A DNA stretch of 64,000 bases from Pseudoxanthomonas yeongjuensis (lineage in GTDB: Bacteria; Pseudomonadota; Gammaproteobacteria; Xanthomonadales; Xanthomonadaceae), in contig NZ_PDWT01000006.1 of assembly GCF_010093345.1 (NCBI RefSeq), positions 62,001 through 126,000 on the forward strand. The letters are read 5' to 3'. Shown one piece after another: positions 1,881-51,042 of this stretch. Each line of letters starts with the position of its first letter. The stretch's first letter is position 1. Both the position numbers and the translations under genes were made by a program. The notes beneath the pieces are model-generated. The model did not search any database, was not told the DNA's origin, and saw only the letters and a program-made list of their open reading frames with translations.

Positions 1881-1922
1881 AAAAAAAACAGTGGCAGGGT
1901 GACGATCTTCCATCACCCTGCC
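1881..1922 (-). terminator. Rho-independent terminator of the TonB receptor gene
   Basis: A perfect 10-bp stem (GGCAGGGTGA / TCACCCTGCC, 1893-1902 and 1913-1922) with a 10-nt loop is followed on the minus strand by ACTG and eight T residues (A8 at 1881-1888 on the plus strand). It lies about 55 bp past the stop of the receptor gene at 1976 and before lysA starts at 1804, so it separates the two units. Confidence 0.88.
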
Positions 1923-1975
1923 CTGTTCACGGTCGCTGTCGAAACCTCATGGTTCCGACAGCTGCATGCACGACC

Positions 1976-4969: not shown

Positions 4970-5014
4970 CCCCGATCTCTCCCTTGCTGAATTGGTAGGT
5001 TGGTTCCCGCTCGG

Positions 5015-6517: not shown

Positions 6518-6688
6518 TTCGACTTGCGACGCCTCCCACGGCATCAAGCGGAAGATGACTGTCTAACATGTCATGAAACCGTCGTCAATAATTTATTCTT
6601 CAATCTTGTGATATAAGAATCATGTATTCCCAACTCCCGGCTGGCCGGGTGAGGGGAAGAATCGGGAAACAATCCGCAAGGGGAACGC

Positions 6689-6826
6689 ATGATCCGCACG
6701 GCCCTGCCCGTTCTGGCGATCGCATTGAAGGCCACCGGGATTTTCACCGTACGCAGGGACCGCGCGTGCCGGCGCCGGTTTGCCGGCCTTTCCTGCTCCA
6801 TCATTCCTGGCTTCCGTCCGAGGTAG
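6689..6826 (+). CDS. Possible 45-residue leader ORF upstream of the NlpC/P60 gene
   Basis: A short frame starts at an ATG preceded by AAGGGGAACGC, a good Shine-Dalgarno at normal distance, and ends at TAG three bases before the ATG of the NlpC/P60 gene. The peptide begins with a hydrophobic stretch (MIRTALPVLAIALKATG) and continues Arg/Cys-rich. No family is recognised. It could be a translated leader coupling expression to the next gene, or chance in GC-rich DNA. The rest of the 312-bp gap (6518-6829) is AT-rich near 6570-6620 and probably holds the divergent promoters. Confidence 0.25.
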   Translation: MIRTALPVLAIALKATGIFTVRRDRACRRRFAGLSCSIIPGFRPR

Positions 6827-6829
6827 ACC

Positions 6830-8239: not shown

Positions 8240-8268
8240 TAACGAATTCCCATAAAGAACCGACACCA

Positions 8269-9366: not shown

Positions 9367-9367
9367 C

Positions 9368-32063: not shown

Positions 32064-32292
32064 CTTTGGAGCCCTCTTGCTGATGGCACCGGCACCGGTT
32101 GCGATGCCTTTTCTCCCGCCTTTGCTTTGCCGCGGGCGTGCCGATTCATATTTCATCGATGCGGGTGTTGCGGAACTCAATGCCTTCGAGCATGAAGCAG
32201 CCTAATGGCCCGATTGCATCAGGCGCGTGAAAAATGCGGGCTTCACGGACATGGAAATGAATATTCCGCAACCGCGAAGTCAAACTGAATCT

Positions 32293-33054
32293 TCAGATCC
32301 ATTCCTGCGCATACACGGCCAGCAGGCCTGCGTATTCCTTCCATGCGCGACCACTGCGCCATAGCGCGCCGCGCGACGGAAACCAGCGCTCTCGCCAAGT
32401 GGCGCGCGGCATCGTTTCCGGCACCGGCACCGGCACGACATCGATGCCGGCCTGGCGGAAAACCAGGCTTGCGCGCGGCATGTGCAACGATGAGGTGACC
32501 AGCAATACCCGCCGCGTCCCGTCGGGCCCGAGCAATGCGGCGGTGTAGCGCGCGTTGTCGCGCGTGTCGCGACTGCGCTCTTCAAGTACCACCGCGGAAG
32601 CCGGAACGCCCAGCTTGCCGATCGCATAGGCCATCGTGCGCGCCTCGCTGTCTTCGGCCCGCGTGCCGCCGCCGGAAAGAATGATCCGCGGCGCACGCCT
32701 GGCCTGCCACGCGCGTGCGCCTGCCGCCACACGGCTGCTTTGCAGTTGCTCGGGCCCGATTCCCGGGCGATCGAGCCAGCCGTAGTGACCGCCACCCAGC
32801 ACGACGATGGCATCGGCTTCAGGCAGCGTCGCTTCGGCCACGACGGGATAGCGGGATTCCAGATGGCCGCGCAGCCAATCCGAAGCTTGTGGAATCGACC
32901 ACACCCCGGACCAGGCAATCGCAAAAAACATGATCGCAAGCGCCAGTTTCCGCCGATGCAGCAGCAGGAACAGCCCCCCGCAAACCAGCAGCCAGACCGA
33001 CAACGTGGGCGGGTAAGTCAATGAGACGATGAGATCCTGCAACGAAGAAAGCAT
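32293..33054 (-). CDS. DUF218/ElyC-SanA-type membrane protein
   Basis: 253 residues. Two N-terminal membrane helices ('LSVWLLVCGGLFLLLHRR', 'LALAIMFFAIAWSGVWSI') precede a DUF218 domain ('EADAIVVLGGGHYGW', 'IILSGGGTRAEDSEARTMA', 'LEERSRDTRDNARYTAALL', 'VLLVTSSLHMPRASLVFRQAG'). Family members (YdcF, SanA, ElyC) affect envelope integrity and undecaprenyl-linked polymer assembly, though no reaction is firmly assigned. It lies 13 bp after the GT4 gene within the exopolysaccharide series, consistent with a lipid-carrier-related role. ATG 33054 chosen as the start just before the first helix. Confidence 0.82.
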   Translation of the reverse strand: MLSSLQDLIVSLTYPPTLSVWLLVCGGLFLLLHRRKLALAIMFFAIAWSGVWSIPQASDWLRGHLESRYPVVAEATLPEADAIVVLGGGHYGWLDRPGIGPEQLQSSRVAAGARAWQARRAPRIILSGGGTRAEDSEARTMAYAIGKLGVPASAVVLEERSRDTRDNARYTAALLGPDGTRRVLLVTSSLHMPRASLVFRQAGIDVVPVPVPETMPRATWRERWFPSRGALWRSGRAWKEYAGLLAVYAQEWI

Positions 33055-33067
33055 GGGCACAGGCAAG

Positions 33068-34315
33068 TCAGTCCATCGAAACATCAGACGGCAGGCGCGA
33101 CGGCACCGCACCGGCCGCAGCGAACGACGTTCGCATTCCCATGGAATCCGCAAGCGATCCCGTTGGATCCTCTGGCAAAGGCGTCACCAGCAGCTCGTTG
33201 TAGACATCGATCGTCTCCTGGATGACGCCGCGATGATCGAAGTGCTGCAGGGCGCGGCTGCGCGCCTGGCTTCCGAGCCGCCGCAACAGCTGGCGGTCGT
33301 CATCCAGCCGTGCCAACGCACTGGCCAGCGATTCCGCACTGCGTGGCTCCACATGCAAGCCATCGACGCCATGTTCGGAAACGACTTCGCGGCAACCGGG
33401 GAGATCGGTGGTGACCAGCGCCAATCCACTGGACGCACCCTCGATCAGGCTTTTCGGAACGCCTTCACGGTAATAGCTGGGCAGCGCCATCACGTCGACT
33501 GTACGCAGCAGCTCCGGCATCCGATCGACATGGCCGAGCCACTTCAGCACGCCTTGCTGCTGCCAATGTTCCACTTCCGCTTGCGGCACCGAACCCGGAT
33601 TGCCGGGATCCGGCGTTCCGGCGAGCAAGAATTCGATCCGCCGGCCCTGCTGCCGAAGCAAGGCGGCCGCCTCTGCGAATTCGCGTATTCCCTTCTCCCA
33701 CAGCAGGCGGGCCGCCAGCAGCACCCGCAGCGGCTGCGACGCATCCGCTTCATCTCCTGTCGGGGAAAAAAGCGCGGTATCGACGCCCGAGCTGCGTATC
33801 AGGCGTACCTTGTACCGCGGCGCCAGCCGTAGCGCAGCGAACATTTCGGCGTCTTCCGGGTTCTGCAGGATCACCCGCGAGTTCCCATGGCTCAGGCTCT
33901 GACGCATCAATCCGGTGACGATCGGCCTGAGCGCCTGCGCCTTCATGCTGTCGCTGGCGAATACATAGCCCATGCCGGCCACCGCATTGACCGTGGCCGG
34001 CACCCTGGCCATGCGCGCGGCCAAGGCGCCATAGACCGCGCATTTCGCGGTGAAGTTGTGCAGCAGGTCGGGCTTTTCGGAGGCCAGCAGCCGCGTCAGC
34101 GCCTGCAGCACCAGCGCCTCGCGCAGCGGGTTGAGGCTGCTCCGGTTCATCGGCAGGGTCAGCCAGCGGATCCCGTGCTCGGCGAAGCGCGCGCCGAAAT
34201 CGCCTGGCGGCGATACCACCACCACCTCGGCGCCCAGCGATCGAAGCCGCAATGCCGTCGACAACCTGAAGTTGTACAGATACCAATCGGTATTGGCGAA
34301 CAGCGCGATCTTCAT
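33068..34315 (-). CDS. Glycosyltransferase family 4 (GT-B)
   Basis: 415 residues from ATG 34315 (GGGAG upstream). It has an N-terminal GT-B Rossmann fold ('KIALFANTDWYLYNFRLSTALRLRSLGAEVVVVSP') and a C-terminal nucleotide-sugar domain with 'RVLLAARLLWEKGIREFAEAA' and the family EX7E-like region 'SYYREGVPKSLIEGASSGLALVTTDLPGCREVV'. Retaining GT4 enzymes add hexoses or N-acetylhexosamines to lipid-linked repeat units on the cytoplasmic side. It lies between the polymerase-like gene and the DUF218 gene. Donor and acceptor cannot be named. It is the only clear glycosyltransferase in this locus besides the initiating WecA-type enzyme, which suggests a small repeat unit or other transferases elsewhere. 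Confidence 0.88.
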   Translation of the reverse strand: MKIALFANTDWYLYNFRLSTALRLRSLGAEVVVVSPPGDFGARFAEHGIRWLTLPMNRSSLNPLREALVLQALTRLLASEKPDLLHNFTAKCAVYGALAARMARVPATVNAVAGMGYVFASDSMKAQALRPIVTGLMRQSLSHGNSRVILQNPEDAEMFAALRLAPRYKVRLIRSSGVDTALFSPTGDEADASQPLRVLLAARLLWEKGIREFAEAAALLRQQGRRIEFLLAGTPDPGNPGSVPQAEVEHWQQQGVLKWLGHVDRMPELLRTVDVMALPSYYREGVPKSLIEGASSGLALVTTDLPGCREVVSEHGVDGLHVEPRSAESLASALARLDDDRQLLRRLGSQARSRALQHFDHRGVIQETIDVYNELLVTPLPEDPTGSLADSMGMRTSFAAAGAVPSRLPSDVSMD

Positions 34316-34394
34316 CGTCCATGCTCCCCGAGCATAGTTACAGGGTTTCCGGAACGGAATCTCGGATCGAATGAGCCGGCGTGCGACACGCCGA

Positions 34395-35570
34395 TCATGG
34401 AATGGCCGTCCTGTGCGAATCCGTTGCATCTCCCATGCCCGAAGCGCGAGGCAAGAGCCGCTTGTGCCGCGCCACGGCAGGAACGACGGATAAAAGCAGC
34501 GAAGGAAGAATCAGGAACAGCAGGAAACAGGAGGCATAGCGTATGCCGCTTCCGGGGTTATAGATTCCGAATGGCATGTACGACACCAGTATCACCACCG
34601 TGGCCGGCAGCCAACCCAGCAGCAACGTGCCACGAACGGGCCCGCGCGGGATCTTGAACAGCGCCACATACACGGAATGGACAAGCAGGCCGAAAACGAT
34701 CAGCCCGGCCACGAAGAATGGCAGCGTGATCGGCCGTGCAAGCACTTCACCGGGCGTTGGTCCGATCAGCGACAGCGGCAATATCCACCATAGCCCGGTC
34801 AGCAGATCCCTGGTGGTGTGCAGGTCGACCCAGGTGCGGGTGGTGGCCGACGCCACCGTGAAATAGCTTCTCGCCAGCGGAAGGACTTCGTTGCTGATAT
34901 AGCTGTCCAGGTACGGCCAGGCGAACGACAACACCAGCGCCGCCAGCGACAGGACGAACAACGCCTGGACGCCGATGCTCATGTGCAGGCGCGGTCCCCA
35001 CGCATACAGCAGGTAGACCAGGTAGAACAGCGCGACACCGGTGCCGAACGGTGCGCGGATATAGATCATTCCGGCCACGCACAGGAGCGCCAGAAGGAAA
35101 TGCTCGAACCGGCGCTGGCGATAGTGGCCCAGCACCGTCCCCATGAAGAACGCAAGCAAGCCCACGAAGATTGATTCGCGTCCGGTCACGGAGGCCCAAA
35201 CGCCGAAATTCGGATTGAGGAGAATGGCCAGCAACGGCCATCGATAATGGCCGCGGATGTTTCCCTGTGCGACCAGGTAGCACACGCCGCTGGCAGCGAA
35301 CAGGGAGAACGCCATGTGCACCAGCAGATCCGCGCCGAGCACCGACCGCAGACCACCGGCGATCTGGGCGACAAGCAGGGTCCGGCCTTGCGAATATTCG
35401 TCGTAGCCCTCCGTGAGGTAGGCCTCGGCATCACCCAGCTGGCTGTAGCGGCTGTAGACATACACCGAGAAAAGCGTCCAGCCGACGAAGATCGCCAGCA
35501 CGGCTGCGCTCGTGAGCGGAGCGCTGGCGGATGCGGCAGACGCCGATCGACGACTCGTGGATGCGATCAT
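34395..35570 (-). CDS. Polytopic membrane protein, putative exopolysaccharide polymerase (Wzy-like)
   Basis: 391 residues with about ten hydrophobic helices and larger loops, for example 'GDAEAYLTEGYDEYSQGRTLL' after helix 1 and a long loop around residues 225-260 ('NEVLPLARSYFTVASATTRTW'). No conserved family name can be read, but size, topology and place between a Wzx-like flippase and a GT4 gene fit an O-antigen/EPS polymerase, a class with very low sequence conservation. 'LNPNFGVWASVTGRESIFVGLLAF' resembles the EpsG-like arrangement. The ATG at 35570 has no strong ribosome site. Alternatives are an acyltransferase-like or other polytopic glycan enzyme; confidence in the polymerase role is moderate. 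Confidence 0.6.
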   Translation of the reverse strand: MIASTSRRSASAASASAPLTSAAVLAIFVGWTLFSVYVYSRYSQLGDAEAYLTEGYDEYSQGRTLLVAQIAGGLRSVLGADLLVHMAFSLFAASGVCYLVAQGNIRGHYRWPLLAILLNPNFGVWASVTGRESIFVGLLAFFMGTVLGHYRQRRFEHFLLALLCVAGMIYIRAPFGTGVALFYLVYLLYAWGPRLHMSIGVQALFVLSLAALVLSFAWPYLDSYISNEVLPLARSYFTVASATTRTWVDLHTTRDLLTGLWWILPLSLIGPTPGEVLARPITLPFFVAGLIVFGLLVHSVYVALFKIPRGPVRGTLLLGWLPATVVILVSYMPFGIYNPGSGIRYASCFLLFLILPSLLLSVVPAVARHKRLLPRASGMGDATDSHRTAIP

Positions 35571-35705: not shown

Positions 35706-37031
35706 TCAGCCCGAATCACCATCGTCGTCATCGCGTTGCATCCTGGTGAAACGTCGTACGCCGTAATAAGTTCCCGCTAGCAGGACCGTTTCGGCGGCCA
35801 CGGTGGCCCAGGCCGCACCCAGTTCATCGAACATGGGAATCAGCAGGACGTTGCCGGCGATGGCGGTGAAGGTGGCCATCGCCATCGCATAGACCCGGAA
35901 GCGCATGTGGTTTTCGGTCAGCAGCGCCGAACCCATCGCAGTGGAAAGGAAACGGATCGGGATGCAGACCGCGAGCACCATCAGTATCGCGACCACGCGA
36001 CGATACTGTTCGCCGAATATCATCGGGATCAGCCAGGGACCGAGCAACACCATGGCTGCGCTGATCGCCAGTCCCAGCGCGAACATGGCGAAATTCCCCT
36101 TGCGATAGACCAAGCGGAATTTCGGCTTGTCGTGCGCGGCCCAGCGATGCAGCTTGCCCAGGAGGAACTTCTGGTAGATCGTGGCGGGGATGAGATAGAT
36201 CGCCGTCATCACCGCCAGCGCGATGGCATACATGCCCGCCTGGGCATCGCCCCTGATGTACTTGATGAGGATCGTGCTGATCTGGAAGAAAACCGGATAC
36301 AGCGCCGCATATACGCCATAGGCCCATGCCTGCGACCACACTTCGGCGACGCCGGGAGTCGCGATGGACGTCGCCGCCGCTGTGGTCCTCGGGCCATGGC
36401 CCTTCAGCGCGATTTCCCCGCGGAACATCGTCCGTATCTGCGGTATCGCCGACAACGCGACCAGCAGGGAAATGGCGCCGTAGCTGAGCGCGACGAACCT
36501 GCCGGTAAGCTGCGGCACCAGCAGCAATCCGAGCGCCACCGCAAGGCGGCTTCCCGGTATCACCATCTGGTTCAACGCCATCCGCGTATAGCGGTCTTCC
36601 AACCGCAGCTTGCTGCTGACCAGGTTGACGGTGAGGACGCTCAGGATCACCGGCGTGAGCACCAGCAAGCTGAAGCGCGTGCCATCGCGCGGCGCGGCCG
36701 CCAGGGCCCAGGCGACCACCATGGCCGTCGCCAGCAGCGTCGTGACCACGGTGAAGCGCATCGACGGCTTCAGCCAGCGATTGGCCGCCCATCCTTCGAC
36801 CCCGTAGACCTTCAAACGGAACTGGGTCAGCCCGAAACCCGCGAGTGGCGCGAGCATGGTGACCGTGGCCAGTGACGAGGCGAACAATCCGTATTCCGCC
36901 GGCCCCATCTGGCGCGCGAGCAGCGCCTGGGTAAGGAAAACCATCAGCGCGCCGATGGCGGTGGCCACGCCCAGCATCGACACCGTCATTGCCGCACGAC
37001 GCCACCCAGGAATGCCCACTTGCGCTATCAC
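35706..37031 (-). CDS. Polysaccharide flippase (Wzx/MATE-like, MOP superfamily)
   Basis: 441 residues, about 12-14 membrane helices. The N-terminal 'GALMVFLTQALLARQMGPAEYGLFASSLATVTMLAPLAGFGL' is the typical opening of Wzx-type lipid-linked oligosaccharide flippases. It would move the undecaprenyl-linked repeat unit across the inner membrane. The tail is acidic ('QRDDDDGDSG'). The GTG start at 37031 is the longest option; ATG 36989 (residue 15) is also reasonable because the first helix begins after it. It heads the series flippase - polymerase-like - GT4 - DUF218 on the minus strand. Confidence 0.85.
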   Translation of the reverse strand: MIAQVGIPGWRRAAMTVSMLGVATAIGALMVFLTQALLARQMGPAEYGLFASSLATVTMLAPLAGFGLTQFRLKVYGVEGWAANRWLKPSMRFTVVTTLLATAMVVAWALAAAPRDGTRFSLLVLTPVILSVLTVNLVSSKLRLEDRYTRMALNQMVIPGSRLAVALGLLLVPQLTGRFVALSYGAISLLVALSAIPQIRTMFRGEIALKGHGPRTTAAATSIATPGVAEVWSQAWAYGVYAALYPVFFQISTILIKYIRGDAQAGMYAIALAVMTAIYLIPATIYQKFLLGKLHRWAAHDKPKFRLVYRKGNFAMFALGLAISAAMVLLGPWLIPMIFGEQYRRVVAILMVLAVCIPIRFLSTAMGSALLTENHMRFRVYAMAMATFTAIAGNVLLIPMFDELGAAWATVAAETVLLAGTYYGVRRFTRMQRDDDDGDSG

Positions 37032-37900: not shown

Positions 37901-39088
37901 TCAGCGGTAGTAGTTCGTGGTAATCCTGATATCGGAAGTGCTGCCGCGGATAAGCATGTCCCGCTCGATCTTGGAACTCCAGCCGGACATCTGGAACGGC
38001 GTCCTGGACACCGCCCCCAGACGGTTGTAATTGCCGTAGGAGGTATTCGAGCTGACCTGGCAATTCCGCGTCCCGTCCTGGATGAACAGGCCGGTCGCCG
38101 AATTGTTGCGGATCGTGTTCTGGGCGATATAGGTCGCCACCGCATTGGCGGTGACGATACCGCAGCTGCCGTTGTTCTCCACCGTGCAGCGCCGCACGGT
38201 GACGCCCTGGGAACCCTTGTAGAGCAGCATCCCGTACCTGGCGTTGCCGCGGACCAGGCAGTTCTCGAAGAGCACCTTGTAGGCGGTGTTGCCGTTCTCG
38301 GGCTCGATGTCGATGCCGCACTGGGGCGTGGCGCCGTTGCTGTTGCTGAATTCCGAGTCGTATACCTTCACATCGCGGACGAAGCCGACCGACAGACCCT
38401 GGCGGCGGCTGCCGGTGCTGACGATATTGGCGACGAGGACGTTCGAGGACGGAATCGGAGCCGCCTGCCACATGGTTGCGCCGGCGATGACCAGGCCATC
38501 TCCCCAGCACTTTGAAATATGGATGTCGCGGACAGTGACGTTGCTCGATCCACGCACATAGATGCCGTGTCCCCATTCGCCGGCGCTGCCACCATGCCCA
38601 TCCCTCTCGCCGACGATCCGCCCGCCGGAAATCTCCACATCCCGGACCTTGTTCACGTACACGATGTTGTACCTTTCGGCACTATTGGGCTTGGCGACCA
38701 GCTTCGCGTCCGCGGACAACTTCAGGTGCATGTAGCTGCGCAGCTTGATGGAAGTCAGGGCGTTGATGAGATACGTGCCGGCCGGCACGGTAATGGTTCC
38801 GCCCGATGCAGGCAATGCATCGATCGCCCGCTGGATCGAAGCCGTGTCGTCGTGTGCCCCATCGCCGACAGCGCCATAGTTCTTCACGCTCAATACCGTG
38901 CTGCCGCGCTGCAGGACAGGAAGCGTGTAATTGGAGGCAGTCACGCCCGGGCTGGTGATCGCCGCCATGACAGGACCGGAGAATCCGGCCAGGGTTGCTG
39001 GTAGTGCGATCGCAAATGATTTGCGGATGAAATCGCGCCGCGCCATCCCTGGCTCGCACGCCAGACGCGCAAGTTCGTTCTTTCTCAT
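37901..39088 (-). CDS. Tat-exported right-handed beta-helix protein (pectate-lyase superfamily), paralogue 1
   Basis: 395 residues from ATG 39088 (AGGA 11 bases upstream). The twin-arginine signal is 'MARRDFIRKSFAIALPATLAG'. The mature part starts with 'NYGAVGDGAHDDTASIQRAI', the pectate-lyase-3/GH28-type opening, then parallel beta-helix coils ('GTITVPAGTYLI', 'DVEISGGRIVGERDGHGGSAG', 'VTVRDIHISKCWGDGLVI'). Such proteins bind, cleave or epimerise acidic polysaccharides; in biosynthetic loci they often act as EPS lyases or epimerases. A paralogue with the same coil order is at 40318-41415. It has its own terminator. Export folded through Tat fits a periplasmic glycan-modifying role; activity is unproven. 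Confidence 0.82.
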   Translation of the reverse strand: MRKNELARLACEPGMARRDFIRKSFAIALPATLAGFSGPVMAAITSPGVTASNYTLPVLQRGSTVLSVKNYGAVGDGAHDDTASIQRAIDALPASGGTITVPAGTYLINALTSIKLRSYMHLKLSADAKLVAKPNSAERYNIVYVNKVRDVEISGGRIVGERDGHGGSAGEWGHGIYVRGSSNVTVRDIHISKCWGDGLVIAGATMWQAAPIPSSNVLVANIVSTGSRRQGLSVGFVRDVKVYDSEFSNSNGATPQCGIDIEPENGNTAYKVLFENCLVRGNARYGMLLYKGSQGVTVRRCTVENNGSCGIVTANAVATYIAQNTIRNNSATGLFIQDGTRNCQVSSNTSYGNYNRLGAVSRTPFQMSGWSSKIERDMLIRGSTSDIRITTNYYR

Positions 39089-39495
39089 GGAATTTTCTGT
39101 CCTGGTCTGAATATATCGAGTAGCCGCTGACGTCGTATTTTTCACGCCCCTTTTACGGCTTGGTGCAATCTATAGCATGCGTGTTGGAACCGAAGTCCGC
39201 ATCTCGATAATTGTGATGTAACTTCTGTTTTCAGCTTCATTTATTCAGGCTACGTCCCGTCTTATTTTTATTGTTCTGCATTTATGTTCATGACTACGCT
39301 CCGCTTCACAACGCTGACTGCGAAGGAGTTTCCAGCCGCGAAAAATTTCGCCACTTCCTTCACCCAACTGAACAATCGCGGCCGGGTACCTGTACCGCTC
39401 CCGAGCGGCGGCGGCGCGATCACGGGTTGACGACACAGGCTCGTTCCTAATGACCGGCAATTTCAGTGGCAATGCTTTGCAAAAGGTATCGCGGC
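39089..39495. other. Divergent intergenic region between beta-helix 1 and the QueC-like gene
   Basis: About 400 bp with AT-rich parts near 39160-39290. It must contain the promoters of both neighbours. No gene or clear operator is seen. Confidence 0.5.
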
Positions 39496-40317
39496 ATGGG
39501 CATACACGCCGAAGAAGGTCATGCGGACTCGCTCCCCCCTGTAGACCTGCTATGGACAGGCGGCTGGGATTCGAGCTTTCGCCTGCTTCAGCTGTTGCTG
39601 CAGCATCGGCGTGAAGTGGTTCCCCACTACTTGCTGGACCCGACCCGTGCCTCCACAAACGCGGAACTGGAGGCGATGCAGCGCATACGCAGCGCCCTGT
39701 TCGAAAAGCATCCCCATACCCGCGTCCTTCTCAAGCCTCTTAGCAAGTTCGACATAGCCGGGCTGGCGGCGGACGCCGCCATAACCGACGCGTTCCGGCA
39801 GCTCGTGGCAGAGCGATTCATAGGCAACCAGTACGATTGGCTCGCAAGGTTCCGCAAGCAACTCGGCATCGCCGAACTCGAGCTGGCAGCCGGCCATCGT
39901 GGCGGCAGGATCCAAGGCATTATCGGCGCGCTGGTGGTGCAGACCTGGAACAATGGCCATGTTTCCTACCGCATCGACCCACGCTATTCGGACACGAAGG
40001 AGTTCTCTGTTTTCGGTGGATTCTCCTTTCCGCTTTTCGAACTGGACAAGCAGGAAACCGGGGACATCGCCGTCGAGCAGGGATGGCTGGACATCCTCCG
40101 CATGACCTGGTTCTGCCATAAACCCGGCAACGGCAACGAACCCTGCGGATACTGCAATCCCTGCCTTTACGCGGTCGACGAAGGCTTTGGCTGGAGGATC
40201 CCGCGTCGCAATCGCATCAAGGGAGCCTTCTACCGCGTTCTCGTGAAGCCGATCAAGGCGCCCGCCAAAGCGGTTATCCAGCAATGGGGAGCCGGCCGGC
40301 GCGCGCTGCTGCGCTGA
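39496..40317 (+). CDS. QueC/ExsB-like PP-loop ATPase, paralogue 1
   Basis: 273 residues from ATG 39496 (AAAGG upstream; ATG 39472 and GTG 39466 are in frame). The N-terminus carries 'LLWTGGWDSSFRLLQLLL', a PP-loop variant in which T21-GGWDS replaces the usual SGGxDS. Near the C-terminus 'WFCHKPGNGNEPCGYCNPC' gives a CH-x-C-xx-C-xx-C cluster like the zinc site of QueC (7-cyano-7-deazaguanine synthase). Family chemistry is ATP-dependent activation of a carboxylate or amide formation. It is the only plus-strand gene in the exopolysaccharide locus, and its stop abuts that of the convergent beta-helix gene. A close paralogue lies at 50173-51042. The role is unknown; amidation of a sugar acid or nucleobase-like substrate is inferred. 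Confidence 0.75.
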   Translation: MGIHAEEGHADSLPPVDLLWTGGWDSSFRLLQLLLQHRREVVPHYLLDPTRASTNAELEAMQRIRSALFEKHPHTRVLLKPLSKFDIAGLAADAAITDAFRQLVAERFIGNQYDWLARFRKQLGIAELELAAGHRGGRIQGIIGALVVQTWNNGHVSYRIDPRYSDTKEFSVFGGFSFPLFELDKQETGDIAVEQGWLDILRMTWFCHKPGNGNEPCGYCNPCLYAVDEGFGWRIPRRNRIKGAFYRVLVKPIKAPAKAVIQQWGAGRRALLR

Positions 40318-41415
40318 TCATTCGAAGACGTTGTCCGCTTCGATGCGTATCTCCCGGCTGTCGTCGGCGACCCGTACCTGACCCTTGCCGCCACGGCCGT
40401 TGGAGCTGAACCGGTTTCCCGCCACCCGTACATTGCGCGAGCCCGCTTTCAACGCTATCCCCTTCAATCCATTGTCGCGGATGATGTTGTCGGCGAAGAC
40501 GCAATCGATGGCGGTCACGGCCAGGATTCCATCGCCGCGGTTGCGATCGATCGTGCACCTTCTTATCGTCACTCCCGCCGCGCGCTTGTAGATCGATATC
40601 CCGGGGCCGCGATTCCCACGCAGCAGGCAATCCTCGATGACGATATCGCTTGCGATCCCGGTGTCCGGCTCGATATCGATGCCTGCGCCCGGCGGCGTTC
40701 CACCGGTATCGGCGAACGTGCAGTTCCGCACCCGCACGCGGCGTGAACTGCCGATGGTGAGTCCCTGGCGCCGGTTCCCGGTACAGACGACGTTCTCGAA
40801 CACGTAATCGCGGCCCGGCTGGGAAGCCCGCGCCCTGGAGATGATGCCGCCGGCGGAAATCCCGTCGCCCCAGCAGCGCGAAATATGGATATCCCTGACC
40901 GTCACTCCCGAACATCCGCGGATCCTTATGCCATGGCCCCATTCACCGGAAGCGGCCAGGTGCGAGTCCCGCTCGCCGATGATGCGACCGCCCGAGATTT
41001 CCACGTCCTCGAGCTGCTGGGCCAACAGCACGTAGGCCCGGGGAGAGGCGTTGGGTCTGGCCAGGAGCCGGGCACCGGCCGCCAGTGACAGGTGCATACG
41101 GCTGCGCAGCTTGACGCTGCGCGTGGGGTCGATGAGATAAGCGCCAGCGGGCACGGTTATCGTGCCGCCCGCTTCCGGCAATGCGTTTATCGCAGCCTGG
41201 AACGAGGAGGTCTCGTCATGGATTCCATCGCCCTTGGCACCGTGCGCCCGCACGTCGATCACGGCGCTTCCCCGCTCCCTGCCGGAGACGACGGCGGCGG
41301 AAGCCGCGAATGATGCCGAACCGCACGCCACAGCCGTAGCGGTCAGCTTCAGGAGCCCACCCATGAAATCCCTTCGCGATGCGCAAGCGGCCGCTTGCTC
41401 CCGATCCAGGCTCAT
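40318..41415 (-). CDS. Tat-exported right-handed beta-helix protein, paralogue 2
   Basis: 365 residues. Tat signal 'SRRDFMGGLLKLTATAVACG', then 'RAHGAKGDGIHDETSSFQAAI' and beta-helix coils parallel to paralogue 1 ('DVEISGGRIIGERDSH', 'VTVRDIHISRCWGDGISAGG', 'GIDIEPDTGIASDIVIEDCLLRG'). The ATG at 41415 overlaps the stop of the asparagine-synthetase-like gene by four bases (ATGA), so the two are translationally coupled and probably act on the same glycan. The stop directly abuts that of the QueC-like gene on the other strand. Enzyme class (lyase, hydrolase, C5-epimerase) cannot be decided from the sequence. Confidence 0.82.
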   Translation of the reverse strand: MSLDREQAAACASRRDFMGGLLKLTATAVACGSASFAASAAVVSGRERGSAVIDVRAHGAKGDGIHDETSSFQAAINALPEAGGTITVPAGAYLIDPTRSVKLRSRMHLSLAAGARLLARPNASPRAYVLLAQQLEDVEISGGRIIGERDSHLAASGEWGHGIRIRGCSGVTVRDIHISRCWGDGISAGGIISRARASQPGRDYVFENVVCTGNRRQGLTIGSSRRVRVRNCTFADTGGTPPGAGIDIEPDTGIASDIVIEDCLLRGNRGPGISIYKRAAGVTIRRCTIDRNRGDGILAVTAIDCVFADNIIRDNGLKGIALKAGSRNVRVAGNRFSSNGRGGKGQVRVADDSREIRIEADNVFE

Positions 41416-42827
41416 GCTGCGAGTGCCTGCGACTGCAGATCGCGGCGGTGGTGGGCCAGCCAGGGCAACACGATGGCCAGGAGATAGAACTTGGAGGCGT
41501 GGTACTTGTTGTCCAGCCGCTGGCGATTCCGGTCGAGCCAGGGCACGGCACCGGGCAGCAGGTCATGCGCCTGTTGGGCGTAATCGCGCACGCTTTCGAA
41601 ACGTTGGGCGGCCAGGCCGCACAGATCGAAGCGGAAGCTTCCTTTTTTCCGCACATAGGGAAGCTCGTCGAAACGCGAGGCGATGTGCCTGCGTATCAGC
41701 ATCTTGTTGAGATGCGTGACCGGGTCCACTTTCTGGTCTCGCGGTACTTCGTGATAGATCCATTCGCGCAGCGTGCGGTCGCAAAACGGATACGCCGCGT
41801 GCACCGACAACGCACTGGCGGTGTACAGCCCCTTGGCGAAAGCGCCGGCCGAACCGGCGATGGACATCGACATGTCGCGCTTTTCCCACGGACTCGTGGC
41901 CGACGCGATCTCGTCGTTGAACAGGGTCAGGCGTGCCCGCGATTCCCGCGCGATGGGCCGGCCGAACAAGCCATCGACTTCGTCGTCGCTGAAACGGGAG
42001 CCGGGGAAGACGCGTTCTATGGCGTTCATCTGCAAGGTGCCGAGCATGAAGCAAAGCTGGAAACTGCGGTCGACCAGCGGCAGCTCGGCAATGCCGCTCG
42101 GCAGCCGCAGATCGCGGGCGAACCCGGCGAGTATCCTTTGTCGCCGATCCACCGGTGTGCCGAAATAGCTGTCCGCGCCCAGCCCGTCGATGACCCCATC
42201 GCCACCGCGCTCGCCGATCTCGGTTGCCAGGTCCATGTAGGAAAGCAGGGCGAAATCCGCGGTCAGCAAAGGCAGCCGCGGCACGGCCGCCAGGTAGCGG
42301 TCGTAGGCGCGCCCGGGATCGCATACCAGCGTTTCATGCCTGAGCCCCAGGGTCCGGGCGACATGGGCCGCCGATTCGACTTCGTTTTCTTCGCGGCCGC
42401 CCAGGTAGGTGATGCAGGTGGTGTCGGGCCGGGCATCGGCGCAAGCGATGGACAGCGTGGTCGAATCCTTGCCGCCGCTCTGCAGCAGCCATGGCGCACG
42501 CATGCCTTCGCAGGAGCGGAGCACCGCATCGCAGAGCAGGCGATGGTAGGCCGCCACCCAGTCCTGGTCCGCGCTGGCGTCTACCGGAATCTCGCCTGCG
42601 TTGCGGAACCTGAAATGGAATTTCGGTGCGACATGCATGTCGTGCTGCGGACAGAATCCGAACGTCACCAGCTTGACGCCTTCGAAGATCGAGTGCGGCG
42701 GATAGACGAACGCATTGCGCAGGATGTCGGCCACGGAAACCAGGTCGATGCGATCGCGCTGCGCATGGCCTTCCGCCAGGGCGGAGAAATCCGGCTTGCC
42801 GAAGTAAGGGGACATGGTGATCTGCAT
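41412..42827 (-). CDS. Asparagine-synthetase-like amidotransferase lacking the glutaminase domain
   Basis: 471 residues from ATG 42827, 13 bp after the Wzc stop. The synthetase PP-loop is S117-GGKDS122 ('WLLQSGGKDSTTLS'), with 'YLGGREENEVESAAHVARTLGLRHE' and 'ADFALLSYMDLATEIGERGGDGVIDGLGADSYFG' following as in AsnB C-terminal domains. The normal N-terminal Cys2 glutaminase half is missing; residues 1-90 are different. Relatives in O-antigen and capsule loci amidate sugar uronic acids using ammonia or a partner glutaminase. It is co-transcribed after Wzc and coupled to a beta-helix gene. The inferred role is amidation or similar ATP-dependent modification of the exopolysaccharide precursor. 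Confidence 0.78.
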   Translation of the reverse strand: MQITMSPYFGKPDFSALAEGHAQRDRIDLVSVADILRNAFVYPPHSIFEGVKLVTFGFCPQHDMHVAPKFHFRFRNAGEIPVDASADQDWVAAYHRLLCDAVLRSCEGMRAPWLLQSGGKDSTTLSIACADARPDTTCITYLGGREENEVESAAHVARTLGLRHETLVCDPGRAYDRYLAAVPRLPLLTADFALLSYMDLATEIGERGGDGVIDGLGADSYFGTPVDRRQRILAGFARDLRLPSGIAELPLVDRSFQLCFMLGTLQMNAIERVFPGSRFSDDEVDGLFGRPIARESRARLTLFNDEIASATSPWEKRDMSMSIAGSAGAFAKGLYTASALSVHAAYPFCDRTLREWIYHEVPRDQKVDPVTHLNKMLIRRHIASRFDELPYVRKKGSFRFDLCGLAAQRFESVRDYAQQAHDLLPGAVPWLDRNRQRLDNKYHASKFYLLAIVLPWLAHHRRDLQSQALAA

Positions 42828-42840
42828 GCATGCGTACCCG

Positions 42841-45093
42841 TCAGGACCTGGGGCCGTTGGCCGGTATGTACTCGTAATACGTGTACGCGTACTGGCCGCG
42901 ACCGCGCTTCTGCACGCCATTGAAGATCGCACCCTTGACCTCCACTCCGTTCTGCTCGAGCCGTTGCTTGGCCAGCGCGATCTCGCGCTGCTGGTTCAGG
43001 CCCCACCTCACCACTATCAAGCTGGTGCCGACGTGATGGCCGATCACCGCCGCATCGGTGACGGCTAGGATCGGCGGCGTATCGATGACGACGATGTCGT
43101 AACGATCCGCCAATTTCCGCAACAGCTCGCTGAAGTTCTCGTGCATGAGCAGCTCGGACGGGTTGGGGGGTACCGCCCCACGCGAAATGAACGACAGGTT
43201 GTCGGCCCCGGAGACCTTGCGGATCGCCTCATCGAGTTCGATCTGGCCGGTGATCAGTTCCGACAGACCACCTTCCCATCTGACCCCGACGGCGTTGTGC
43301 AGGGTGCCGCGGCGCATGTCGGCATCGACCAGGATGACGCGCTGATCCGCCTGGGCCATGGCCACGGCCAGGTTGGCGCAGACGAAAGTCTTGCCCACTC
43401 CAGGGCTGGGCGCGGTGATCATCAGCAGGTTGTTCCTGGTCTTCAGCCGCGCGAAATGCAGGCTGGTGCGCAAGGTGCGCAGCGCCTCCATCGCCAGATC
43501 GGTGGGCGCTTTCAGGGCCAGCAGGCGCTGGCGCCCGTCGCGGCCGAAACGCCGGCCCGGATGCAGGGTCAGCGCGCGGCCCTTTTCGCTGTAGGGGATC
43601 GAGGCGTACACCGGCAGGCCCAGCAATTCGATATCCATCGGATCCTCGACGCCGCGCTTGAAAATTTGCCGCAGCAGCACGAACGCGATCATCAGTATCG
43701 CTCCCAGTGCGGTGCCGCCGACCAGTACGGGAATGGGTTTCGGCCATGCCGGATCGTCCAGGTTCACTGCTGCCGGATCGATCACCCGCGCATTGCCGAC
43801 CGCGCTGGCGCGGGCGATATTGAGTTGCTGCGCCTGGTCGAGCAGGTTGGCGTAAGTCTGGTTGGTCACCTCGACGTCGCGATTCAGGCGGAACAGCCCC
43901 TGCTGGGTATCGGGCAATTTCTGGATGCGTCCCTGCAACGCCGCCTTCTCGCGCTGGAACTGGCCGATCTGCGCCTGCAGCGCGCGATAGACCGGATGCT
44001 CCGGGGTGAAGCGGGCGTTGCTGTCGGTCATCTGGATGCGCAATTGCTGGATGCCCGAGTCCAGCGCGATGGTCTGGTCGAGCAGCGCCCTGTTCTGTAC
44101 GTCCACGTCCAGCGTCTGCGTGCGGCTTTGGAACGAGTTGAGCGCGGCCTGCGCCTTGGCCAGTTCGCGGCGCACGTTCGGCAGTTGCTCGGTGACGAAT
44201 TCGAGCCGTTTGGCCGCCTCGGCCGAGGTCCGCGCGACGTTCTGGCGCACATAGGAGCCGGTGATCTCGTCCAGCACCTGCCTGGCCCGGACCGGATCGG
44301 CATCGGCGTAGGTCAGCGCGATGACGCCCGAGTTCCGGCCCTGCTCGGAAACGCTGATATTGCGCTTCAGGGTCTCGATCAAGGTCGTGGGATCGAGCCG
44401 TTTGAGTTCGAAGCGCGCGCCTGGATTGGCTTGCAGGCTTTTCACTTCCAGCTTGATGCCGTTCGCATCGACGACCCGCCCCACGCTTCCCTCGACCAGC
44501 AATCTGCCTTCGCTGTCCGACACCTTGTAGCGACCAGCGTCGCCGGCGACGAGCATCAGCGGCACACCGACCAGGTTGGCCGGCACGTCCAGTCGCGCGA
44601 CATCGATCCGTTCCCCTCCCCAGCCGTAGTGATCGAGGCCGAACCATGGAGCCGCCAGCTCGCCAGGCCGGGCGAGCTGGAATCCGCGCGCCACGATACC
44701 GCCGATCAGCGGAATCCGGGAAGGAGCGGCTTCGATGTACAGGTCGAGGTTGTTCAACGCTTCGCCAAGCACCCGGCGCGAAGTCAGCAACTGGACTTCG
44801 GTCGAGGCCGGCGAACTCATCGGCGCAGGAGCCTGCGCGGCCGTGTTCGCATTCAACCCCGGCACGGTCGGCATCCTGTTCTCCACCTGCACCACTGCGT
44901 TGGCCTCGTACTTCGGCGTGACCAGGAGTACGTAGATCGCGCTGACGAGCAGGAAAAGCGCGGTGCCGAACAGGATCAACCGCTTGTTTTCGGCGAGAGT
45001 GCCCACCATCGTCGGCAGATCGATGTCCTCATCGCGCAGCGTGGCCGGCGCCTGGCCGTGCGTTTCCGTTCTGTTCGTGAGATGTGTTGCCAT
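42841..45093 (-). CDS. wzc: Wzc-type polysaccharide co-polymerase and tyrosine autokinase
   Basis: 750 residues from ATG 45093 (GGTGAAG upstream). The Wzz domain has TM1 'LILFGTALFLLVSAIYVLLV', a long periplasmic coiled-coil part (about 220-430) and TM2 'PVLVGGTALGAILMIAFVLL'. The C-terminal BY-kinase has Walker A 'APSPGVGKTF' (about 561), Walker A' 'ILVDADMRRG', Walker B 'IVVIDTPP' and a C-terminal tyrosine cluster 'QYAYTYYEY', the autophosphorylation site. It controls chain length and export together with the Wza-like lipoprotein, and would be dephosphorylated by the Wzb-like phosphatase at 47930-48385. It is the second gene of the WecA-fusion operon. Confidence 0.9.
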   Translation of the reverse strand: MATHLTNRTETHGQAPATLRDEDIDLPTMVGTLAENKRLILFGTALFLLVSAIYVLLVTPKYEANAVVQVENRMPTVPGLNANTAAQAPAPMSSPASTEVQLLTSRRVLGEALNNLDLYIEAAPSRIPLIGGIVARGFQLARPGELAAPWFGLDHYGWGGERIDVARLDVPANLVGVPLMLVAGDAGRYKVSDSEGRLLVEGSVGRVVDANGIKLEVKSLQANPGARFELKRLDPTTLIETLKRNISVSEQGRNSGVIALTYADADPVRARQVLDEITGSYVRQNVARTSAEAAKRLEFVTEQLPNVRRELAKAQAALNSFQSRTQTLDVDVQNRALLDQTIALDSGIQQLRIQMTDSNARFTPEHPVYRALQAQIGQFQREKAALQGRIQKLPDTQQGLFRLNRDVEVTNQTYANLLDQAQQLNIARASAVGNARVIDPAAVNLDDPAWPKPIPVLVGGTALGAILMIAFVLLRQIFKRGVEDPMDIELLGLPVYASIPYSEKGRALTLHPGRRFGRDGRQRLLALKAPTDLAMEALRTLRTSLHFARLKTRNNLLMITAPSPGVGKTFVCANLAVAMAQADQRVILVDADMRRGTLHNAVGVRWEGGLSELITGQIELDEAIRKVSGADNLSFISRGAVPPNPSELLMHENFSELLRKLADRYDIVVIDTPPILAVTDAAVIGHHVGTSLIVVRWGLNQQREIALAKQRLEQNGVEVKGAIFNGVQKRGRGQYAYTYYEYIPANGPRS

Positions 45094-45229
45094 GTTCTTC
45101 ACCCGTCAGATAAAAGGGATAACCGCGGCTTCGTATCGCTTTCGGCAGCGATGCCGCGCGGCGCTTCTCCATGCAGTACACGTCCATGCGGTGCTTGCGA
45201 ACAAGTCGTTGTGTTGCGCTTGCAGCCAG

Positions 45230-47929: not shown

Positions 47930-48385
47930 CTATAAGTGCGAACTCCAACGCATCAGCGCTGTTTCTATCGATTGGTAAGCGCGCTCGAAGGCGGGTCGCT
48001 GGCGGCCATAGGGGTCCGGGATTTCGGCATCCCCCTGCCATTTCCCCAGCAGGAATGACTTGTCGCGCACAGAAGGCGACAACGCATGCAGCGCGGCCAG
48101 ATGCCGCTTTTCCATTGCAAGCACCAGATCGGCAGCGTCGATGATGGCTGGGTTGATCTGATGGGCGACATGCAGGCGCCCCGTCAAACCATGCGCGGAA
48201 AGCACCGATTCGGCAAGAGGGTCGATGGGACTTCCTTCCATGGCCAACAGCCCTGCGGACCCGACAGCAATAGCTCTTCCATGGAGTTGATGGCGTAAGA
48301 CGATCTCGGCCATCGGGCTGCGGCAGATGTTGCCTGCGCATACGATTAGCACATGGGTTGGCACGTACGTATCCACCTCGATCAT
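47930..48385 (-). CDS. wzb: Low-molecular-weight protein-tyrosine phosphatase (Wzb-like)
   Basis: 151 residues from ATG 48385; the frame extends further upstream but without family sequence. The P-loop is 'VCAGNICRSPMAE' (C-x4-C-R-S), and the general-acid aspartate is in 'EIPDPYGRQRPAFERAY'. In exopolysaccharide systems this enzyme dephosphorylates the Wzc tyrosine tail. It lies upstream of the WecA-fusion gene with a 282-bp gap that holds no gene, so it may share or have its own promoter. The 265 bp before it contain nothing that I can support. Confidence 0.88.
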   Translation of the reverse strand: MIEVDTYVPTHVLIVCAGNICRSPMAEIVLRHQLHGRAIAVGSAGLLAMEGSPIDPLAESVLSAHGLTGRLHVAHQINPAIIDAADLVLAMEKRHLAALHALSPSVRDKSFLLGKWQGDAEIPDPYGRQRPAFERAYQSIETALMRWSSHL

Positions 48386-48650
48386 GCTTGGAGTCAGTCC
48401 GCTTGGCGACCGTCCCGGTGGAAAGCAGAAGCCGGAAGCAGGCGGGCTGCGGAGCGATGAAGCCGCTTCAGGCAGCCGGGCGCCCAGGATTGGCTGCCGC
48501 TGCCCGGACATTCTTTCCGGCGGTCGCGTTACCGTGCCGGACTGGAGCGCGCCGCGGCCGGCGCATGTCGTTACCCGGCGCAGTAGCGACCCACGATGCG
48601 CATCACCCGTCAACGACCTCCAGGCCATCGCGCAGGGCGGATCCCCACGT

Positions 48651-49070
48651 TCAGGGAATGAACGTCTGTTCGGGGTCGTCGAAGGACTTGAACTCCAGGG
48701 CGTTTCCCGATGGATCGAACAGGAACATCGTCACGTGCTGCCCGGGTTTGCCCTTCAACCGCAGGTGCGGCTCCTCGTGGAACGAGAGGTCGGCGGCTTT
48801 CAGGCGCTTGGCCAGCGCCTCCCACGACTCACGGTCGAGATTCATGCCGAAGTGCGGAACCGGGACCGCCTCGCCGTCGAAGCGCCCGCTCTGCAGCGGC
48901 GCGTCGTCGTCAGAGATGTGGGCGACCAGGTGATGGCCGAAGAAATCGAAGTCCTGGTACGACACGTCACTCCTGCCCTGGGGGCAACCGATCGTGTCGC
49001 CGTAAAAGCGCCGCGCCTCGTCGAGGTCGCGCACCGGGAAAGCGAGATGGAACTGTGCGGCCTTGTTCAT
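48651..49070 (-). CDS. VOC-family (glyoxalase/dioxygenase superfamily) protein
   Basis: 139 residues with the two-module VOC fold: 'FHLAFPVRDLDEARRFYGDTIG', 'DFDFFGHHLVAHISD', 'PHFGMNLDRESWEALAKRL', 'KPGQHVTMFLFDPSGNALEFKSF'. Metal ligands are probably His8, His in 'VPHFGM' and the Glu in 'NALEF'. The sequence is closest in feel to glyoxalase/bleomycin-resistance/extradiol dioxygenase-like proteins of unknown substrate. The ATG at 49070 lies 10 bp after the stop of the diiron-protein gene, inside a 14-bp tandem duplication, so the two genes are likely one operon. Confidence 0.85.
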   Translation of the reverse strand: MNKAAQFHLAFPVRDLDEARRFYGDTIGCPQGRSDVSYQDFDFFGHHLVAHISDDDAPLQSGRFDGEAVPVPHFGMNLDRESWEALAKRLKAADLSFHEEPHLRLKGKPGQHVTMFLFDPSGNALEFKSFDDPEQTFIP

Positions 49071-49094
49071 GTCGTCTTGCTCATGTCGTCTTGC
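49067..49094. repeat. 14-bp tandem duplication at a stop/start junction
   Basis: TCATGTCGTCTTGC is repeated twice in a row across the end of the diiron-protein gene and the start of the VOC gene. On the minus strand each copy reads GCAAGACGACATGA, so the duplication created both the stop context of one gene and the start context of the next. Confidence 0.8.
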
Positions 49095-49872
49095 TCATGA
49101 CGTGCCTCCCGGGCGGGACGCACGCATCGAAGATGTTCTGCCAGAACAGGTTCCACGCCGTGATGCTGCGTTCGTAGCCCTCGGCCAGGTCCGGCAGCGC
49201 ACCGGGATCCTGGCGGATGTAGTCGTCGATGGCCTGGCGCGTCAGCTCGCCATGGACGATGTCCTGCTCTCCGGTATGGATCGTCCAGAACTCCCAGTCG
49301 ATGCGGTTCGCGTGTTCGCGCATGTACGGATGGGTGCGCAGATGCTCGAACATGACCGACAGGTAGGTCTGGCACAGGCATTCGCCGCCCATCCCGCGCA
49401 GGCCCACGCCAAAGGCCGGGGCGCGATGGCGCAGCTCCTCGGTCAACCCGCCCAGGATGGCTCGGTTGGCGGGCAAGCCACGTTCCAGTCGCTCCGGCTC
49501 CACGCCGATGCTCGCCAAAAAGCGGTCGTAGATCTCTGGATGCGCCTTGGCCGCGTCGCCTTCGCCGAGCTCCTCGGCGAGAATCTCGCTCAACAGGCTA
49601 CGCAAGCCGCCGAAAGGAAGTTTTGCCAACAACAAGGCGAGGTCGCTGATGTAGTCGATCGTGAAGAATCGATACTGCGTACAGAATTGCCGCAGCGCAT
49701 CGACGGGCAGCCGCGACAGCGCCTTCATCTTCTGCTCCGCCAATGCCTCGGTCGCTTCCTTGGCCTTGTCGGCGCGCTGCCAGAACGTTTTCCTGTCCCA
49801 CGCACCGGAACGCGTCGCCATGGCTGGAACGAAAGGTGTTGCCGGCGCGTTTTGGTTCTTCTGCAATGACAT
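49081..49872 (-). CDS. Haem-oxygenase-like diiron (iron-containing redox) protein
   Basis: 263 residues from ATG 49872, all helical. 'SEILAEELGEGDAAKAHPEIYDRFLASIGV' with E-x6-H/E spacing, 'CQTYLSVMFEHLRTHPY' and 'EFWTIHTGEQDIVHGELTRQAI' are typical of the iron-containing redox enzyme family with a haem-oxygenase/PqqC/CADD-like fold, in which Glu and His residues bind two irons. Substrates in the family vary (fatty acids, amino acids, nitro-group formation). The partner is a VOC protein in the same unit; together they could form a small oxidative module. Substrate unknown. Confidence 0.8.
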   Translation of the reverse strand: MSLQKNQNAPATPFVPAMATRSGAWDRKTFWQRADKAKEATEALAEQKMKALSRLPVDALRQFCTQYRFFTIDYISDLALLLAKLPFGGLRSLLSEILAEELGEGDAAKAHPEIYDRFLASIGVEPERLERGLPANRAILGGLTEELRHRAPAFGVGLRGMGGECLCQTYLSVMFEHLRTHPYMREHANRIDWEFWTIHTGEQDIVHGELTRQAIDDYIRQDPGALPDLAEGYERSITAWNLFWQNIFDACVPPGRHVMSKTT

Positions 49873-50172
49873 GCGTTCAACCTGGTGGAAATTCCGCGAT
49901 GTGAATGACCACGATGCGAAGTGGATGGATGGCCGGACGAAATTCCGACGGGAGCATACTCTGCGACCTTGCACGGACGCTTCACTTCATGCTCACGGTC
50001 GTGAACCGGATCGATGTAACGTGAATTTTCTTATCCTCATTTCCGTGTTTCGCACAGATCGCCCTTGAAGGCAGCCGCATTCATCTTCCGCAAGATTGCG
50101 CCGGTTCATTTTTCATTCTGGAATGACGCGGAATCGCGCACTATTCGCATGTTTGGCAAGGCTGAGAGGGAT

Positions 50173-51042
50173 ATGCGGCGAATGCGCAAGAGGAATACTC
50201 GACCGATGGATGACCCATCACGCGTCACGACAGACGATTCTTGCGTGGACCTGCTCTGGACCGGCGGCTGGGATTCGACTTTCAGGCTGTTGCAGTTGCT
50301 GCTGCTGCATCGCGTCCCGGTCGCCCCCCATTACCTGGAGGATCCGACGCGGGCATCGACGCAGATCGAACTGCGGACGATGGCCCGCATCGGCGAGCAT
50401 CTGGGCGAGGCGTATCCATGCACCCGCGAGCTTCTGCAACCTCTACGCCTCGCTGCGGTAGCCGACGTCGCGGATGATCCGGAGATTTCCGGTGCGCTTC
50501 GGGAGATCCGCAAAAGGACCTTCATCGGCAGCCAGTACGCGTGGTTGCCGGCATTCTGCAAGCAGAATGCGATCACCGGCATGGAGTTGGGCGTGCATGT
50601 CGATGACAAGGTACAGGCGTTGTTGCGCTCGTTCGTCGTCGAGTTCGAACATCCATGCGGCTACCGCAGCATCCGCGTCGACCCCAGGCATGCCGACACC
50701 GCCGAGTACAGGCTGTTCGGTTGCTTCAGCTTTCCGCTGTTCCGTATCGACAAGCTGGGGATCGGCCGGCAAGCCGAAGCCGGAGGCTGGAGCGCCATCA
50801 TGGACATGACATGGTTTTGCCATACCCCGCTGCGCGGCAGGCCCTGCGGGACATGCGCGCCATGCGTCTACACCATCGAAGAAGGACTCGCGCACCGCGT
50901 GCCGGCTTCGCGGCGCGCACTGTCCTTCTTCTACCGGCATCTGGTCTTGCCGCTGAAAGGGCCATTGAGGGACATGCGCGCGTCATCGCGCCGACGCCCG
51001 GTGGCCCGCCACCCGGACGCGCCCGGAATCGGCGATCCCTGA
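50173..51042 (+). CDS. QueC/ExsB-like PP-loop ATPase, paralogue 2
   Basis: 289 residues from ATG 50173, chosen for GAGAGGG five bases upstream; starts at 50149, 50182 and 50206 are also in frame. The sequence parallels the gene at 39496: 'VDLLWTGGWDSTFRLLQLLLLHRVPVAPHYLEDPTRAST', 'CFSFPLFRIDKLGIG' and the cysteine cluster 'WFCHTPLRGRPCGTCAPC'. The two must share a recent ancestor or substrate type. This one is about 1.8 kb beyond the phosphatase that ends the exopolysaccharide locus, next to a decayed gene. The 300 bp upstream hold its promoter and that of the divergent diiron gene; no other gene is seen there. Function unknown; 7-deazaguanine synthesis is an alternative to a glycan role. Confidence 0.75.
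   Translation: MRRMRKRNTRPMDDPSRVTTDDSCVDLLWTGGWDSTFRLLQLLLLHRVPVAPHYLEDPTRASTQIELRTMARIGEHLGEAYPCTRELLQPLRLAAVADVADDPEISGALREIRKRTFIGSQYAWLPAFCKQNAITGMELGVHVDDKVQALLRSFVVEFEHPCGYRSIRVDPRHADTAEYRLFGCFSFPLFRIDKLGIGRQAEAGGWSAIMDMTWFCHTPLRGRPCGTCAPCVYTIEEGLAHRVPASRRALSFFYRHLVLPLKGPLRDMRASSRRRPVARHPDAPGIGDP

Follow-up and report, generated by a model that had tools for sequence, protein, structure and literature searches.

A QueC-fold protein family gained and lost together with an exopolysaccharide locus in Lysobacteraceae

What is a protein with the fold of QueC doing inside a polysaccharide locus? The question is raised by a stretch of 64,000 nucleotides from Pseudoxanthomonas yeongjuensis (assembly GCF_010093345.1, contig NZ_PDWT01000006.1, positions 62,001 to 126,000 of the forward strand), referred to here as the window. 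Minus-strand genes running from about 49 down to 31 kb of the window form a Wzx/Wzy-type exopolysaccharide (EPS) locus, in which the plus-strand gene of a QueC-fold PP-loop/zinc protein, QUEL1 (39466-40317, 283 residues), is placed between two beta-helix genes. A first-pass annotation of the segment 39496-42827 had described a QueC-like protein with a TGGWDS loop and zinc-type cysteines, and, also among the export genes, an asparagine-synthetase-like ATP pyrophosphatase devoid of a glutaminase domain, here called ASN (41412-42932, minus strand, 506 residues). Both descriptions agree with what we find and both open reading frames are real, but the two ends of that segment are internal ATGs of longer frames: 39496 is an alternative start of QUEL1 and 42827 the likely start of ASN, whose homologs also begin near residue 36 of the product of the longer frame. 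The two-enzyme set then proposed is likewise present, but the set of partners is wider: a diiron oxidase and another QUEL copy had been missed. This paralog, QUEL2 (50065-51042, plus strand, located by protein search), lies at the upstream edge of the EPS locus and is divergent from the genes of a haem-oxygenase-like diiron oxidase (HDO; 49081-49974, minus strand; PF14518, 1.5e-14) and of a VOC/glyoxalase-superfamily protein (48651-49070, minus strand; PF00903, 2.1e-08). When the whole genome was searched at the protein level, QUEL1 and QUEL2 were its only QUEL copies, with a mutual identity of 48-50%.

Among 247 Lysobacteraceae genomes, QUEL was found in 34 and ASN in 33, with both present in 31 and neither in 211 (Fisher p 1.2e-33). 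The search for co-occurrence of the gene pair suggested by the first-pass annotation was thereby rewarded, and the tie of QUEL to the EPS system turned out to be stronger than adjacency would make it, as ASN accompanies QUEL in 31 of 34 genomes while the two genes are mostly unlinked. They lie within 20 kb of each other in only 3 of the 31 genomes; in the other 28 they either share a contig at a distance of 77 kb or more (13 genomes) or stand on different contigs (15 genomes, where the true distance is not readable). In the source genus, a strong ASN match was present in 12 of the 36 other genomes, and an intact QUEL in those very 12.

A gyrB tree covers 74 of the 80 genomes searched for this gene; on it the two traits show 18 and 19 changes. 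Of 15 independent QUEL contrasts, an average of 12.7 had ASN changing in the same direction, 0.0 in the opposite one and 2.4 with ASN unchanged (median p 2.4e-4), and the reversed test with 16 contrasts gave 13.0, 0.0 and 3.0, respectively. Left out of the tree were four genomes with no full-length gyrB (G435, G441, G466 and G626) and two whose trait state was unclear (G165 and G274); since G435 and G626, which are 72% and 81% complete, are two of the three genomes with QUEL only, their omission favours the reading given here. A link that is merely statistical, arising from lineage or from large islands while QUEL does something unrelated to the polymer, would fit the mixed QUEL contexts seen in other taxa and the few genomes that break the rule. 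We regard it as distinctly improbable, because the changes on the tree are numerous and coupled in independent pairs and because the genes involved are mostly unlinked; a control gene near QUEL2 (51800-52918) was found in 0 of 246 other genomes and, being absent everywhere, is a weak control. QUEL and the ASN locus tend to be gained and lost together even when far apart, a shared history that suggests the polymer bears an unknown chemical decoration. As a separate observation, genome G389 (locus L087, C10:13353-13627) retains a broken remnant of QUEL, enclosed by the same genes that border QUEL and HDO in sister species; it has no strong ASN match, and its gyrB sister G392 carries QUEL, ASN and HDO.

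A quick tree resolves the QUEL sequences into three clades: an EPS clade of 4, to which QUEL1 belongs, an HDO-linked clade of 22 rows that includes QUEL2, and a multi-copy Lysobacter clade of 9. The EPS clade consists of the window, two Luteimonas and P. helianthi, in each of which QUEL has ASN on one side and a beta-helix gene on the other, and it is within the EPS loci of the window and of L090-L092 that QUEL adjoins ASN. Across 36 Lysobacteraceae loci, HDO accompanies QUEL in 21, a class-III aminotransferase in 14 (all with HDO), HDO plus a VOC or c16 protein in 12, and ASN is nearby in 4. Each clade contains carriers with ASN in the genome, as in G511, which has an EPS-type QUEL only and no HDO; the presence of ASN in carriers of each kind therefore indicates that QUEL, not HDO, is what tracks ASN. 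HDO itself was matched in 29 of the 247 genomes, strongly in 24 (E <= 5.1e-113), and all 24 are within the 31 that carry QUEL and ASN. The five weaker matches, 43-46% identical, come from large-genome relatives of one genus (G529, G575, G593, G608 and G638) with no QUEL or ASN match. Five genomes of one genus (G480, G514, G540, G564 and G582) hold 1, 4, 4, 5 and 3 QUEL copies, respectively, in a separate clade without HDO, and two of the copies stand head to head in G564 and in G540.

The sequence and fold of QUEL were followed in an alignment of 72 members, made of the two window copies and 70 of 83 extracted relatives; the sampling kept the best 80 of 259 relatives, so that distant members are under-sampled. 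The loop residues W20, G23, W24, D25 and S26 and four cysteines are invariant (72/72), as are Gln112, a Glu (E57) and a Tyr numbered Y45 in the shortened sequence. The exact string TGGWDS occurs in 64 of the 72 sequences and the variant [TS][GS]GWDS in all of them, with the strict form SGGxDS found once; the zinc motif C(x)8CxxCxxC appears with strict spacing in 37, and with a spacing of 7-12 followed by CGxCxxC in 71. The AlphaFold2 model of QUEL1 (mean pLDDT 94.9) was aligned by VIA-align best with Cap9 (Z 12.2, root-mean-square deviation 3.2 over 162 residues), followed by YcfA (Z 10.2), QatC (10.1) and QueC (10.1; deviation 4.2 over 172 residues), with LarE at a Z of about 9. These YcfA and LarE matches lend something to the idea that QUEL belongs to the sulfur- or thioamide-forming PP-loop enzymes and adds sulfur to a polymer precursor. 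We judge it very improbable, since no conserved Cys exists beyond the zinc four (a fifth occurs in 50 of the 72 sequences, with Arg in its place in QUEL1), and four invariant Cys columns fit zinc binding and not a sulfur-transfer Cys pair.

QUEL has the QueC fold yet is most probably not QueC. The Pfam QueC model (cut-off 22) aligns to its zinc end only, with 22.4 bits for QUEL1 and 16.3 for QUEL2, and against TIGR00364 (cut-off 150.3 bits) QUEL1 reaches 16.7 bits and QUEL2 gives no row. A canonical queC is encoded elsewhere in the P. yeongjuensis genome, and a profile alignment of QUEL with its product covers 49 columns, again at the zinc end only (probability 78.6). The signature motifs YxQxHxxE, VPxRN and YPDC, reported for QueC in the available part of PMC13329287, are each found in 0 of 72 QUEL sequences and all three in the genome's own QueC. 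In 27 chosen QUEL genomes, QueC over the cut-off was present in 17 and a PTPS (QueD-family) match in 22, and four (Tetragenococcus halophilus, two Salimicrobium species and one Firmicutes metagenome bin) had neither. The QueC function that the first-pass annotation had named as the outcome contrary to its own proposal is thus unlikely. We likewise give hardly any credence to QUEL handling deazaguanine, be it as a spare QueC or as a protein deazaguanylase of the Cap9/QatC kind: Cap9 is indeed the top fold match and the zinc spacing is that of the genome's own QueC, but the missing motifs, the canonical enzyme encoded elsewhere in the genome and the four carriers with neither gene speak against this role, as does the PADLOC scan of four window proteins, whose sole match was QUEL1 to QueC with an E-value of 0.0065. 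No match to QUEL1 was found in plasmid and phage collections. A viral contig (L055:3864-5669, with L056 and L057 alike) carries a frame of 601 residues with a C-terminal QUEL domain; no Pfam model matches the N-terminal part, which by eye resembles an ATP-grasp enzyme.

The second PP-loop protein, ASN, matches Pfam Asn_synthase (PF00733; 2.2e-12, 47.7 bits, above the gathering score of 21) and has no Pfam match to a class-II glutaminase domain. When aligned to the AsnB of the same genome, it keeps the SGGKDS loop and the C-terminal Lys. In the available part of PMC13060819, a Glu-Tyr pair is described as conserved in five asparagine-synthetase-like enzymes (Glu363/Tyr368 in PesC), with a change of the Tyr abolishing PesC activity. 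Mapped by inference from spacing and from the alignment to the genome's own AsnB, the Glu site is occupied in 16 ASN sequences by Ser (14), Thr (1) or Ile (1), and the Tyr site by Pro in all 16. With the dyad lost, simple amidation of a sugar acid is not the obvious job of ASN, and the first-pass proposal that this enzyme amidates sugar acids loses its footing. The broader version, in which sugar acids (or nucleotide-sugar acids) of the polymer are direct amidation substrates of QUEL and ASN alike, draws on both being ATP pyrophosphatases with intact loops and on a UDP-GlcNAc 2-epimerase domain in the locus that offers a possible route to ManNAc-type sugars. It appears unlikely nonetheless, as ASN lacks glutaminase domain and dyad alike, no uronic-acid-forming dehydrogenase was identified in the annotated stretches, and the HDO cassette is left unexplained.

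The HDO protein scores 54.6 bits against PF14518 (gathering score 28.9), and its model has a pLDDT of 78.4, with residues 1-48 under 50. VIA-align places it at Z 19-22 to CADD-like proteins, HrmI, FlcD and BesC with 13-19% identity, which makes it a remote member of this fold family; many known HDO types stand at similar Z and no single reaction is picked out. Residues E134/E135, H145, E198, H233, D238 and H241 are invariant in 15 of 15 HDO sequences and, by their pattern, are candidate diiron ligands. For the class-III aminotransferase partner, the nearest solved chain is taurine:2-oxoglutarate aminotransferase, a likeness too general to name a substrate. Together, HDO and the aminotransferase look like a cassette preparing an amino-acid-like precursor.

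Our preferred answer is a pathway spread over two loci, in which a small precursor would receive its C-N bond from QUEL, in an ATP-dependent step, before ASN and the exporters install the product on the polymer; we place its probability at roughly 0.5. In most lineages the HDO cassette, often with VOC and aminotransferase, may shape an amino-acid-like precursor that feeds QUEL. As an ATP pyrophosphatase, QUEL could take a small, non-deazaguanine precursor, activate its carboxylate (or amide) group and then form the C-N bond of an amide, a nitrile or an N-conjugate. A PP-loop and a zinc knuckle with no further invariant Cys fit a QueC-like course in which adenylation precedes the making of the C-N bond, and QueC/ToyM is listed among known ATP-dependent nitrile formers in the available part of PMC13060819. 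The EPS machinery encoded with ASN would need the QUEL product, and from the genetics we infer that ASN fixes it to the polymer, possibly by joining the group that bears the nitrogen to a sugar acid within the repeat unit. The decorated polymer would then be exported by Wzx/Wzy/Wzc/Wza, with the secreted beta-helix proteins acting on it. What the data establish is the fold of QUEL, its zinc and ATP motifs, the partner genes and their correlated gain and loss with QUEL; the substrate, the sequence of steps, the C-N chemistry and the link to the polymer are deduced from these.

Several observations weigh against such a pathway. QUEL occurs without ASN in three genomes (G435, G509 and G626, two of them incomplete), and ASN without QUEL in G430 and G493, as well as in G423 outside the family. 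HDO is missing in 7 of the 31 genomes with QUEL and ASN, and the cassette is therefore not obligatory. When Foldseek matches of QUEL1 are ordered by E-value, TrmU and MnmA come ahead of Cap9, so that the chemistry of QUEL is not given by its fold alone. In ASN, a Tyr right after the lost Glu is kept and could replace the dyad. Moreover, of 44 loci from other taxa only 13 have an EPS-type profile match and none has HDO, which leaves the EPS link well shown only for Lysobacteraceae.

The neighbourhood of QUEL in the window is otherwise that of polymer assembly and export, all of it on the minus strand. The beta-helix protein next to ASN (40318-41415) carries a TAT-like signal, and the second one (37901-39145) an RR-type signal judged by eye. 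Upstream lie a Wzc-type chain-length/tyrosine-kinase protein (42841-45102), a fusion of a glycosyltransferase family 4 domain (PF00953) with the UDP-GlcNAc 2-epimerase (PF02350; 45230-47647) and a low-molecular-weight protein tyrosine phosphatase of Wzb type (47930-48628). The family 4 domain of the fusion is of sugar-phosphate transferase type, and the epimerase, fused or adjacent, recurs beside Wzc in relatives. Downstream follow a flippase (35706-37031; PF01943), a candidate Wzy polymerase with no Pfam match, proposed from position and hydrophobic look (34395-35570), a glycosyltransferase related to the EpsE-type family 4 enzymes (33068-34429), a DUF218/ElyC-like protein (32293-33153) and a Wza-type polysaccharide export protein with Poly_export and SLBB domains (30972-32180). 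No tRNA was found in the window, nor any Rfam family at the gathering score.

In a Pfam tally of 124 near neighbours of QUEL, glycosyltransferase family 2 leads with 6 members and the sugar-transfer-associated ATP-grasp has 3. In Salimicrobium (L152/L155), an asparagine-synthetase-like gene comes directly after QUEL and is followed by a glycosyltransferase family 2 gene; QUEL overlaps by a few bases both the asparagine-synthetase-like gene and a flippase-like gene, the latter recognised by eye. In L112, QUEL is followed by an asparagine-synthetase-like gene beside a TPR gene, with no polysaccharide locus seen around. The dyad positions are likewise lost in the asparagine-synthetase-like proteins of L152/L155 and L112. 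Tentatively, and with less than even confidence, we propose that the QueC-fold TGGWDS family, the diiron oxidase and the stripped asparagine-synthetase-like ligase make up a natural-product-like pathway for a nitrogen-bearing EPS substituent, and that similar QUEL/AsnB-like pairs arose in other phyla. Two further loci are recorded here: outside the family, L083 (G423) has an ASN-type EPS locus with two beta-helix genes and no QUEL match in the genome, and in L158 a 2967-residue frame (1026-9929), polyketide synthase-like by eye, has QUEL directly behind it.

If the proposed pathway holds, it would add to the QueC superfamily a new branch that serves neither tRNA modification nor phage defence, and provide a concrete gene set for a polymer modification. 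In a broader sense, correlated gain and loss can tie unlinked genes to one polysaccharide. The available portion of the main text of a 2026 survey of PF06508, with its ten named clusters, does not mention TGGWD, WTGG, polysaccharide, glycosyltransferase, Lysobacter or asparagine synthase, and some small cluster left unnamed there may contain QUEL members. The string TGGWDS was in no paper of the literature searched, and the literature matches listed held nothing pertinent on the structure of a Lysobacter or Pseudoxanthomonas polymer or on QueC-like genes in EPS loci.

Compared with known systems, QUEL shares with canonical QueC (PF06508, TIGR00364) the PP-loop, the overall fold and a zinc knuckle of the form Cys-nine residues-CGxCxxC, the genome's own QueC likewise having nine residues, but it differs in its T/S-x-GWDS loop and in missing the three signature motifs. 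As in Cap9 of type IV CBASS and in QatC, the QueC fold would have been repurposed away from tRNA; unlike for these two, no defence genes were identified beside QUEL, the PADLOC scan covering four window proteins, and some carriers are without the deazaguanine pathway. The N-acetyl sugar amidotransferase NASAT (WbpG type), in the available part of PMC10607449, also combines a PP-loop with a tetracysteine zinc site in a polysaccharide context, whereas its motif is CxxC...[GN]xCxxC and that of QUEL the QueC-type C(x)7-12CGxCxxC, with four conserved Cys only. These O-antigen relatives, which the first-pass annotation took to amidate sugar acids, are described there as ligating ammonia to the N-acetyl group of a sugar, which is not acid amidation. 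With AsnB, the XrtA/EPS type of TIGR03108, beta-lactam synthetase, lasso cyclase and the nitrile synthetase PesC, ASN has in common the SGGKDS loop and the C-terminal Lys; it departs from these ligases in being without a glutaminase domain and in the exchange of Glu for Ser, Thr or Ile and of Tyr for Pro, and it scores 16.9 bits against the TIGR03108 cut-off of 816.9. Finally, the HDO of the window resembles the oxidases CADD, HrmI, FlcD and BesC in its fold and in its PF14518 domain, at an identity of 13-19%.

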